Below are positions 29,773-35,568 of a stretch of 64,000 bases of DNA, piece by piece. The stretch is from Truepera sp. (GTDB lineage: Bacteria > Deinococcota > Deinococci > Deinococcales > Trueperaceae). A program made the position numbers and the translations under genes. The stretch covers positions 539,356 to 603,355 of the forward strand of contig JAVSMU010000001.1 of NCBI GenBank assembly GCA_032027045.1. Direction: 5' to 3'. Position 1 is the stretch's first letter; every line of letters starts with the position of its first letter. The notes beneath the pieces are model-generated. The model saw only the letters and a program-made list of their open reading frames with translations, was not told the origin of the DNA and made no database searches.

Positions 29773-31353
29773 ATGACCACCGCGACCCTCTTCCTCATCA
29801 TCGTGGCCGTGTCGGGCGTGTCGTCCGTGCGGTGGGCCTCCCGTCTCGCTCCTTTACCCAACGAGTTCCCCGCCAAGACGCTGCTCGCAGCGCTCGTGGC
29901 CGGCGCGCTGGCCGCGGCCACGGCAGGGAGCTGGCGGGCGCCGGCCGCGCTGACGGGGGTCGTGGTGGTGCTCACGCCGCTGTACGTCTTCGGCCCCTTG
30001 GGCCTGTTGGCGCTCGTCCGCGCGGGTGGCTGGCGTGCAGCCCGGTCCCTGGTCGCCATCCTCTACTGGACCCCAGGCGGCAGGGAGGCCGTGGGCAGGC
30101 TGCTGGCGCAGGCAGCGCTGCAACAGGGCGACGCCGAGGCGGCCCTGGCCCTCACCACGCGTCACGACCCGGTCCTCCTGGGTCAGGCGTACCTCTTGCA
30201 GGGCGAGTACCAGAAGGTCTTGGACCTCGAGCAGCCGCCCGCCTCGTGGGGGGCCGACAACGCGCACCTGCTTGCCGCCGCGCGCGTGGAGGCACTATTG
30301 GGGCTCGGACACCTGGAGCAGGCGCGGCACGAGACGGGGATCATGAGGACGCGCTTCGAGGCCGGGAAGCAGGGTCCGCTGGAATACCGCGCGGTAGTCC
30401 TCTCCGAGGCGCGGCTGGCGGCGAACGCGGGTGACTTCGAAGGGGCCCGAAAGTTGCTCGAGCAGCCCCTGGCGGGCGTGAGCCCCGCCACTCTCTACGA
30501 CATCTTGGGCAGCGCCGCGGAGCGGGCCGGGCTCAAGTCGGTGGCCATCAAGGCGTACGCGGCGGCCTACACCGCCTCCAGAGGCCGGACGCGAAGAGCC
30601 TACGAGGCGCGCCTGCGTTCGCTTGGCGCCCCGCCCCCGACACCCGCGGCAACTTTGGCGAGGCGTCCGCTTGCGACGTACTTGCTGGGCGCCGTCCTCG
30701 CGCTGACGTACTTGGTGCAAGTGCTGGCCGACAAGTACATAGGACTGTTGTCGGTCGGAGGCCAGGGAATCCACGCGAGCAGCGTGGTGGCGGCGTTCGT
30801 TCAGGGCGTGCCGGGCGTCCCGGACGCGAACGTCTGGTGGCGCTACCTGACCTACGCGTTCATCCACGGCAGCATCTTGCACATCGGCCTGAACGTCTGG
30901 GTGCTCCTCGACATCGGACGTCTCTACGAGCGGCGCCGCGGCTGGGGAGACGTGCTGGCCGCGTTCACGCTCGGTACCGCCGCGGGCGCGCTGGCGACCA
31001 CCATCTTCCAGGCCGGGCAACCGTTGGTGCTGCTCGGCGCCTCGGGCGGCATCCTGGGCGTGGCGGGGGCCCTGTTGGCGGAGGCGGCGCTGAGCCGTTC
31101 GGCCTCCGACCGGCTGCTGCTGCGGAGCCTGCTGCAGTGGGTGGCCCTGCTGCTCGTGTTCAGCATCGCCATACCCGGCGTGTCGCTTTGGGGCCACGTG
31201 GGCGGGATCGTCGGCGGCTTCGTCTACGGCGCCGTGCGGCTGCGCTCCGGAGTCGGGCAACGCTTCTCCCAGGCCGCCGGCTGGTTCTGCGCGGGGCTCC
31301 TGGCGTTGGCCGTCATCAGTGCCCTGACGAGCGTGGTGCCGCTGCTGCCCTGA
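29773..31353 (+). CDS. rhomboid intramembrane protease with N-terminal TPR-like region
   Basis: 526 aa. Residues 1-95 contain two or three hydrophobic helices; 100-275 look like TPR-type helical repeats (ALLGLGHLEQARHETG and LEQPLAGVSPATLYDILGSAAERAGL); 295-520 are the rhomboid core with HIGLNVWVLLDIG, the catalytic serine in GASGGILG and histidine in WGHVGGIVGG. Cuts membrane proteins within the bilayer. TPR-carrying rhomboids are known elsewhere, but the substrate is unknown. Preceded by a TACCAT box; divergent from plsY. Confidence 0.9.
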   Translation: MTTATLFLIIVAVSGVSSVRWASRLAPLPNEFPAKTLLAALVAGALAAATAGSWRAPAALTGVVVVLTPLYVFGPLGLLALVRAGGWRAARSLVAILYWTPGGREAVGRLLAQAALQQGDAEAALALTTRHDPVLLGQAYLLQGEYQKVLDLEQPPASWGADNAHLLAAARVEALLGLGHLEQARHETGIMRTRFEAGKQGPLEYRAVVLSEARLAANAGDFEGARKLLEQPLAGVSPATLYDILGSAAERAGLKSVAIKAYAAAYTASRGRTRRAYEARLRSLGAPPPTPAATLARRPLATYLLGAVLALTYLVQVLADKYIGLLSVGGQGIHASSVVAAFVQGVPGVPDANVWWRYLTYAFIHGSILHIGLNVWVLLDIGRLYERRRGWGDVLAAFTLGTAAGALATTIFQAGQPLVLLGASGGILGVAGALLAEAALSRSASDRLLLRSLLQWVALLLVFSIAIPGVSLWGHVGGIVGGFVYGAVRLRSGVGQRFSQAAGWFCAGLLALAVISALTSVVPLLP

Positions 31354-31413
31354 CCGCCTGGTGCACCGGGCCGGGACCTTGGCCCGCCCCGACTCTAGAG
31401 GGCCCGGTGTAAT

Positions 31414-31430
31414 CTTGTACTCAGTACAAG
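31414..31430. promoter_or_regulatory. 17-bp perfect palindrome, probable repressor operator
   Basis: CTTGTACTCAGTACAAG: two 8-bp arms around a single base, 61 nt before the acyl-CoA dehydrogenase start and overlapping a possible -10 box TAATCT at 31410-31415. Size and symmetry suit a TetR- or GntR-type dimer. The regulator gene is not adjacent. Confidence 0.6.
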
Positions 31431-31490
31431 GAAGTTCTGGTTCTCGCCGGCCGCAACCCAATCGTTAGCCGGTAGTCCCTGGAGGAGAAG

Positions 31491-33245
31491 GTGGCAGACG
31501 TGGACAGTCACGCGAAGGTCGCGGCCCCGACGGGCGGCGCGTTCCTGATAGAGCGGCAGAACGCGGACTCGGTGCTCATCCCCGAGGCGTTCGACGACGA
31601 GTTGAAGCAGTTCTCGAAGACGGCCAGGACCTTCGTCGAGCGCGAGATATTGCCCGACTTCGAGCAACTCGAAGCGCTCGACTACGCCCTCTCGCGCCAG
31701 AAGATGGCCAAGGCGGGAGAGCTCGGCCTCCTGGGCGTGGAGATCCCCGAGGAGTACGGCGGCCTGGGTGCAAGCAAGGCCGCCTCGGCCGTGATCACCG
31801 AGGCCATCTCGGGCTCTGGCTCTTTCAACGTGACCTTCAGCGCCCACTCCGGCATCGGCACGCTGCCCATCGTCTACTTCGGCACCGAGGAGCAGAAGCG
31901 GCAGTACCTGCCCAAGCTGGCCAGCGGCGAGTGGATCGCCGCATACTGCCTCACCGAGCCCGGTTCCGGTTCCGACTCGCTGGCGGCCAAGACGCGCGCC
32001 GTGCTCGACGGCGACGAGTGGGTGCTCGACGGCACCAAGATGTGGATCTCGAATGCCGGCTTCGCCGACCTGTTCATCGTCTTCGCCAAGGTCGACGGCG
32101 AGAAGTTCACCGGCTTCTTAGTGGAGAAGGGCACGCCCGGCCTGAGCCTGGGGGCGGAAGAGAAGAAGATGGGCATCAAGGGCTCCTCCACCCGCATGGT
32201 GATCCTGGAGGGGGCCCGCATACCCAAGCAGAACCTGCTGGGCGAGATCGGCAAGGGCCACCACATCGCCTTCGGCATCCTCAACATCGGCCGCTTCAAG
32301 CTGGCCATGGGCGCATCCGGCGGCGTGAAGAACCTGATCGACGTGGCCCAACGCTACGCCAGGGAGCGCCAGCAGTTCGGCGTGCCCATCGCCACCTTCG
32401 GGCTCATCAAGCAGAAGGTCGGCGCCATGACGGCCGAGGGCTACGCGCTCGAGAGCGCCGCCTACCGCCTGGTAGGCAGCATGGACGCCGCCCTGGAGGG
32501 CAAGGAGTCGAGCGCGGAGCAGCTCGGCGCGCTCAACGAGTACGCCGTGGAGTACTCGTTCATCAAGGTCTTCGGGTCCGAGATCCTCGACTTCGTGGTC
32601 GATGAGGCGCTGCAGATCTACGGCGGTTACGGCTTCTCCGCCGACTACCCCATCGAACTGCCGTACCGCAACAGCCGCATCAACCGCATCTTCGAGGGCA
32701 CCAACGAGATCAACCGCATGCTGACCGTCGACCAGCTCCTCAAGCGCGCCATGCGGGGCCAGCTCGACCTGCTGGGGCCGGCGCAGGACGCCATGATGGG
32801 CAAGCCCGCTACGGAAGCGCACGGTCCCGAGGTGTTGGCGGACGCCAACCTGGCGCTGGCCAACCTGAAGCTCGCGACTTTGATGGTGGCCGGCATGGGC
32901 GCCATGGCGTACATGCAAGGGCTCGAGCAGGAACAGGAGCTCATGGCGCGCGTGGCCGACATGGTGGGCCTGGCATACTTCGCGGAGAGCGCCCTGCTGC
33001 GCGCCGAGCGGCTGCAGGGCACCCGCAGCGCCGAGACCGCGACGCTACTGGCGCGCATCTACGCCTTCGCCGCGGTGGACCGCGCGCGCGACCTGGGCGT
33101 AGAGGCCCTCAGGCGCATCCCGCGCGGCAAGGAGGCCATGCCGCGGCTGCAGGCGTACCTCGCCGAGCACGGCGTCGACCTGATCGAACTGCGTAGGGGG
33201 GCCGCCGAGGCGGTTTACGAGGCTGACGGGTACCCGTTGGGCTGA
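31491..33245 (+). CDS. acyl-CoA dehydrogenase
   Basis: FAD enzyme of fatty-acid or branched acyl-CoA oxidation, first step of the cycle. 584 aa, the long type with an added C-terminal domain of about 170 residues. Seen: the FAD loop AYCLTEPGSGSDSLAA, WISNAGFAD, the mid-domain RQQFGVPIATFGLIKQK, and the catalytic segment IYGGYGFSADYPIELPYRNSRI followed by FEGTNEINRML. The GTG start has a strong GGAGGAG site 3-5 nt upstream. Probably controlled through the palindrome at 31414. Ends by overlapping the converging ABC transporter gene by 31 bases. Confidence 0.93.
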   Translation: MADVDSHAKVAAPTGGAFLIERQNADSVLIPEAFDDELKQFSKTARTFVEREILPDFEQLEALDYALSRQKMAKAGELGLLGVEIPEEYGGLGASKAASAVITEAISGSGSFNVTFSAHSGIGTLPIVYFGTEEQKRQYLPKLASGEWIAAYCLTEPGSGSDSLAAKTRAVLDGDEWVLDGTKMWISNAGFADLFIVFAKVDGEKFTGFLVEKGTPGLSLGAEEKKMGIKGSSTRMVILEGARIPKQNLLGEIGKGHHIAFGILNIGRFKLAMGASGGVKNLIDVAQRYARERQQFGVPIATFGLIKQKVGAMTAEGYALESAAYRLVGSMDAALEGKESSAEQLGALNEYAVEYSFIKVFGSEILDFVVDEALQIYGGYGFSADYPIELPYRNSRINRIFEGTNEINRMLTVDQLLKRAMRGQLDLLGPAQDAMMGKPATEAHGPEVLADANLALANLKLATLMVAGMGAMAYMQGLEQEQELMARVADMVGLAYFAESALLRAERLQGTRSAETATLLARIYAFAAVDRARDLGVEALRRIPRGKEAMPRLQAYLAEHGVDLIELRRGAAEAVYEADGYPLG

Positions 33246-35169: not shown

Positions 35170-35568
35170 CTACATCTCGTCAGGATGGACGACTTCCAGT
35201 TCGGAGATCTCGCTGGTAAAGTCCTTGCGGTTGTTCGTTACGAACCGCTCCGCCCCCACCTGGACGGCGCTGGCCAAGTGAATGGCGTCGGGTGCCTTCA
35301 GTCGGTAATGCGCGGCGAGGCTTACTGCCAAAGCAGCGATCTCGCCGGTCAAGGGCACCAGCGTCAACCGGGCCAAGCAGGCCGTCAACGCATGCAGTTC
35401 CGCCTCGTTAGCCAGCTGGGTCGGCTTGATGAGCAGTTCGACGAGCAGGAGTGTCGCACCGAAGCGCCCTCCATCCGTGTCATCAAGTGCTGCCCACACC
35501 GGCTTCCCCAACCGATGCCCAGGCGTCGCGGCATAGGTGAGAACGTCGCTGTCGAACGCGGTGCGCAC
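35170..35568 (-). CDS. PIN-domain toxin (VapC-like ribonuclease)
   Basis: 132 aa. Acidic metal-binding residues of a PIN nuclease are in place: Asp in AFDSDVLTYA near the N-terminus, Glu in LLLVELLIKP near 44, Asp in KAPDAIHLASA near 92 and the late NNRKDF. Likely an RNase inhibited by the product of the gene directly upstream, whose TAA stop touches this GTG start with no base between. Strict coupling and the shared operator upstream make this a toxin-antitoxin module. Confidence 0.87.
   Translation of the reverse strand: MRTAFDSDVLTYAATPGHRLGKPVWAALDDTDGGRFGATLLLVELLIKPTQLANEAELHALTACLARLTLVPLTGEIAALAVSLAAHYRLKAPDAIHLASAVQVGAERFVTNNRKDFTSEISELEVVHPDEM

Follow-up and report, generated by a model that had tools for sequence, protein, structure and literature searches.

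The window, a stretch of 64,000 nucleotides from Truepera sp., carries fadE, a gene for an acyl-CoA dehydrogenase that follows a gene for a rhomboid-domain protein, and the 137-bp gap between the two contains a palindrome. The source genome consists of one 2.92-Mb contig, in which fadE lies at C1:570846. The features discussed here are the following, with window positions for all except the last, which is given in contig coordinates.

29773..31353, plus strand: rhomboid-domain protein gene, upstream and outside the system (domains)
31414..31430, no strand: 17-bp perfect palindrome (sequence)
31415..31429, no strand: putative FadR operator core TTGTACTCAGTACAA, 0 mismatches to TTRNACYNRGTNYAA (PMC5597230)
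31481..31485, plus strand: likely Shine-Dalgarno GGAGG of fadE (read from the sequence)
31491..33245, plus strand: fadE, acyl-CoA dehydrogenase, 584 aa, GTG start, the gene predicted to be regulated (NCBIfam, domains)
C1:1640088-1640726, minus strand: P0003, FadR orthologue, 213 aa (TetR_N; best solved match TtFadR)

The fadE product passes the NCBIfam FadE model NF058590 with 719.3 bits (cut-off 600), contains three acyl-CoA dehydrogenase domains with an extra C-terminal PF21263, and is 80% identical to a protein of an uncultured Trueperaceae bacterium. Elsewhere in the window, a PIN-domain protein gene (PF01850) on the minus strand at 35170-35568 possibly encodes the toxin of a toxin-antitoxin pair. 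The sequence-only reading had described a perfect palindrome of 17 bp before fadE, and this description is correct: CTTGTACTCAGTACAAG, at 31414-31430, is composed of two 8-bp arms flanking one base. Its centre lies 69 bp downstream of the stop codon of the rhomboid-domain gene and 69 bp upstream of the GTG start of fadE, and the putative operator core precedes a fatty-acid degradation gene. Symmetry alone is uninformative, as the window contains four palindromes of this kind and 30 dinucleotide-preserving shuffles of it gave a mean of 2.8 and a maximum of 8. The significance of the palindrome rests on its identity and its conservation, not on its symmetry.

The identity comes from Thermus thermophilus. 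No position of the core TTGTACTCAGTACAA departs from the 15-bp pseudopalindrome TTRNACYNRGTNYAA, which the available text of PMC5597230 gives as the consensus selected in vitro (REPSA) for the TetR protein FadR of this species (TtFadR). TtFadR binds its own consensus with a KD of 0.17 nM, and in a T. thermophilus fadR mutant the operon TTHA0890-0892, which encodes a dehydrogenase, a thiolase and an acyl-CoA dehydrogenase, is up 26-35-fold (PMC5597230, available text). Two further TetR regulators from the same phylum, T. thermophilus PfmR (TTHB023) and SbtR (TTHA0167), have fatty-acid genes among their targets. Their consensus sequences are given in the accessible part of PMC7022988 as TACCGACCGNTNGGTN or the aYgAAYGryCRgTcRg type for PfmR and as TGACYrnnyRGTCA for SbtR, and the source-genome site, compared by eye, fits neither.

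Conservation was assessed in 41 genomes, from which the 27 with a full-length fadE match (44-100% identity, L002-L028) were counted; the 14 others, in which matches were confined to shorter paralogues with identities up to about 40%, were left out. The upstream scan was anchored by tblastn at all 27 fadE loci. Of the 27 genomes, 23 have the site, either ahead of the fadE orthologue itself or ahead of the first gene of its operon. In 16 of these it lies within 250 bp upstream of fadE with at most one mismatch (13 exact, 3 with one mismatch), while in seven more it heads a fadN-fadA-fadE operon, in which a 3-hydroxyacyl-CoA dehydrogenase and a thiolase precede fadE as the third gene (5 exact, 2 with one mismatch, the latter resembling the TTHA0890 site). 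Neither gene nor operon has the site in the remaining four (G010, G013, G021 and G025). Across the 16 directly upstream rows the 15 site columns average 1.52 bits compared with 0.28 and 0.20 in the flanks, a contrast that is in part built in, as the rows were picked and aligned by the site. The genus has nine exact sites in six genomes and none for a reversed control; five of them precede fadE, two precede a thiolase gene and two lie inside an open frame. The narrower pattern TTGTACTNAGTACAA with at most one mismatch occurs at 48 places, spread over 26 of the 101 genomes scanned, compared with 8 for the reversed pattern (row sums). Of the loci inspected by eye, many precede acyl-CoA or 3-hydroxyacyl-CoA dehydrogenases and others do not.

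Related genomes show further arrangements. In the f4 genomes (L037, L039-L041, L043, L044 and L046) the site precedes an acyl-CoA dehydrogenase gene, and in six of these seven loci a divergent old-yellow-enzyme-like gene lies across the site (by eye; not seen in L039). The family-level relatives G014 (loci such as L049) and G006 (L055) have many sites, ten at up to one mismatch in G014, and their FadR regulon looks larger; some of these sites precede another acyl-CoA-dehydrogenase-like open frame, which starts with MPxYKAPLRDMRFVMHE.

Within the source genome, the consensus TTRNACYNRGTNYAA occurs exactly twice, where composition predicts 0.26 occurrences and the reversed control gives none. 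A thiolase gene, followed by a FadJ-like gene, begins at the second exact site, C1:2540680; the thiolase is closest to FadI and, like the FadJ-like protein with respect to its own model, scores below the cut-off. The same arrangement with the site is present in G004. For G002 and G003, whose second exact site is located within a long open reading frame, chance may be the explanation. This second target is visible with the published consensus and is missed by the window's own core. The sequence-only reading had pictured a false lead as a motif both unique in the genome and unconserved upstream of orthologous genes; the core is indeed unique at up to two mismatches (reversed control 2) but is conserved before the orthologues. 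At one mismatch to the consensus there is no enrichment in the genome (9 matches, 20 for the reversed control), and inspection by eye of the open-frame lists around the seven one-mismatch sites revealed no fatty-acid gene. The earlier idea of a dispersed regulon is thus borne out in the form of one additional target, the fadI-fadJ-like operon at C1:2540680, but not as a broad regulon, and its proposed link to phenylacetate genes gains no supporting evidence. As there are two exact sites and no enrichment at one mismatch, the genomic data support a small dispersed regulon, predicted to comprise two operons at this stringency.

The regulator of this putative regulon is encoded far from the site. 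A TetR-type protein whose gene is not next door had been expected, and both expectations agree with P0003, a FadR orthologue encoded at C1:1640088-1640726, 1.07 Mb from fadE. P0003 has a TetR_N domain (PF00440, 53.7 bits, cut-off 24), and its best match among solved structures is TtFadR (3ANG; residues 3-194, 1.7e-38, 135.6 bits), followed by a match at 5.2e-12 and 49.2 bits. The source genome has eight TetR genes; the comparison with solved structures and the tracking across genomes covered three of them, P0001, P0002 and P0003. The AlphaFold model predicted from the P0003 sequence alone was of low quality (mean pLDDT 44.9) and was set aside.

A P0003 homologue is found in one copy each in 28 of the 41 genomes. 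All 23 site-bearing genomes have the FadR orthologue, as does one of the four genomes that lack the site (Fisher 0.0014, uncorrected for kinship). In that one, G025, the FadR relative is weak (32% identity) and the operon has no site. G021, in which no FadR orthologue was found, contains an exact copy of TTGTACTCAGTACAA (L051, G021:C1:265738) between genes that by eye are unrelated to fatty acids, and this copy is probably a chance occurrence or a relic. The orthologue is also carried by G006, G014, G022 and G037, which belong to the 14 uncounted genomes. Placement upstream of fadR was examined at 27 of the 28 loci (G001 was unplaced), and the control scan covered the 25 loci with sufficient flank. 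Some relatives have the site upstream of fadR, with two exact copies and four at one mismatch among these 25 stretches, and five control patterns gave none. The fadR of the source genome has no site upstream at up to one mismatch and none in its locus at up to two. An operator before the regulator's own gene is common among such systems and not required.

The site thus resembles the system of T. thermophilus FadR (TTHA0101; PDB 3ANG, 3ANP) in its 15-bp consensus, in having an orthologous TetR regulator and in the type of target, which is a dehydrogenase-thiolase-fadE operon in Thermus and fadE plus a fadI-fadJ-like operon in the source genome. Unlike in Thermus, fadE is a lone gene beside the rhomboid gene, the second operon belongs to the fadI-fadJ type, the exact sites number only two, and no operator of its own is seen at fadR. 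FadR of Bacillus subtilis (PDB 1VI0, 3WHB) is likewise a TetR repressor of beta-oxidation genes, but its operator probably differs from the source-genome site. While the FadE of the window falls in the NCBIfam family named after Bacillus (NF058590), P0003 matches the Bacillus regulator weakly (8e-7) and, at 36.6 bits, stays far under the NCBIfam FadR cut-off of 200.

Two other explanations of the palindrome have to be weighed. A different acyl-CoA-sensing TetR protein could use it as its operator, for instance P0001 or P0002, both of which are related to fatty-acid regulators: the best solved match of P0001 is 6EL2, which we take to be FadR of the archaeon Sulfolobus acidocaldarius, at 8e-35, and that of P0002 is 3WHB (Bacillus FadR) at 8.6e-13. 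However, homologues of these two proteins (E <=1e-12) are missing from many site-bearing genomes, whereas those of P0003 occur in all 23; in G012 the site occurs without either protein, and the site-bearing f4 genomes gave no match to P0001 or P0002. Both were dropped as FadR candidates because the distribution of their homologues does not follow that of the site, and this explanation is very improbable. The P0001 gene itself (L147 1078-1812; G000:C1:208282-209013) adjoins, by eye, a ketoacyl-synthase/HMG-CoA-synthase-like open frame.

Even less credible is the view that the inverted repeat arose by chance or forms a non-regulatory hairpin, located perhaps where the rhomboid transcript ends. 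As the shuffles show (4 against 2.8), the window would be expected to contain bare palindromes of such a size. Against this view, the same 15-mer pattern recurs in 16 otherwise dissimilar upstream regions, and the site precedes fad genes even in genomes with a different upstream gene. No terminator-like site was found. The site, its consensus match, its conservation, its co-occurrence with the regulator and its second target were all computed.

The palindrome is therefore best described as a predicted FadR operator of the ordinary kind, and a well-supported one. Judged from sequence, the protein that docks at this place before fadE is very probably FadR, a known fatty-acid-sensing repressor. 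TetR dimers of this family bind such palindromes and block the promoter, which in the case of TtFadR is freed again by acyl-CoA binding. We infer binding, repression and acyl-CoA release for P0003 along the same lines, and have strong confidence in the following model. A P0003 dimer would bind with one subunit per TTGTACT half-site and keep fadE from being transcribed; once fatty acids become available, their acyl-CoA thioesters would bind FadR by analogy and make it leave the DNA, which would switch on fadE and the distant fadI-fadJ-like operon. The sequence-only reading had placed the palindrome over the likely promoter; a consensus scan of the GC-rich window at 31300-31520 found no sigma-70-like promoter. 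In G012, the TTGTAC of the site is followed after 17 bp by TATAAT, so that by eye the left operator half reads as a -35 element, a reading that fits a blocking of RNA polymerase.

On balance we lean towards a history in which the pair of FadR and operator is ancestral to the order, perhaps to the phylum. In the window's genus the fadN-fadA-fadE operon would have been broken up, with the lone fadE keeping its operator and the fadI-fadJ-like operon acquiring one, while lineages that lost FadR would have lost the operator too. The 2017 study, in its available text, reports no sites in Deinococcus orthologues by BLASTn and some by regulon inference (PMC5597230), and literature listings, which mostly do not cover subscription papers, showed no published work on FadR in Trueperaceae among the entries listed. 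A conserved element is hereby given a named candidate regulator, and the small predicted regulon of two operons has one strong candidate repressor among eight TetR genes. The regulon derived from Thermus would thereby reach Trueperaceae as well as further families of the order, a less studied branch.
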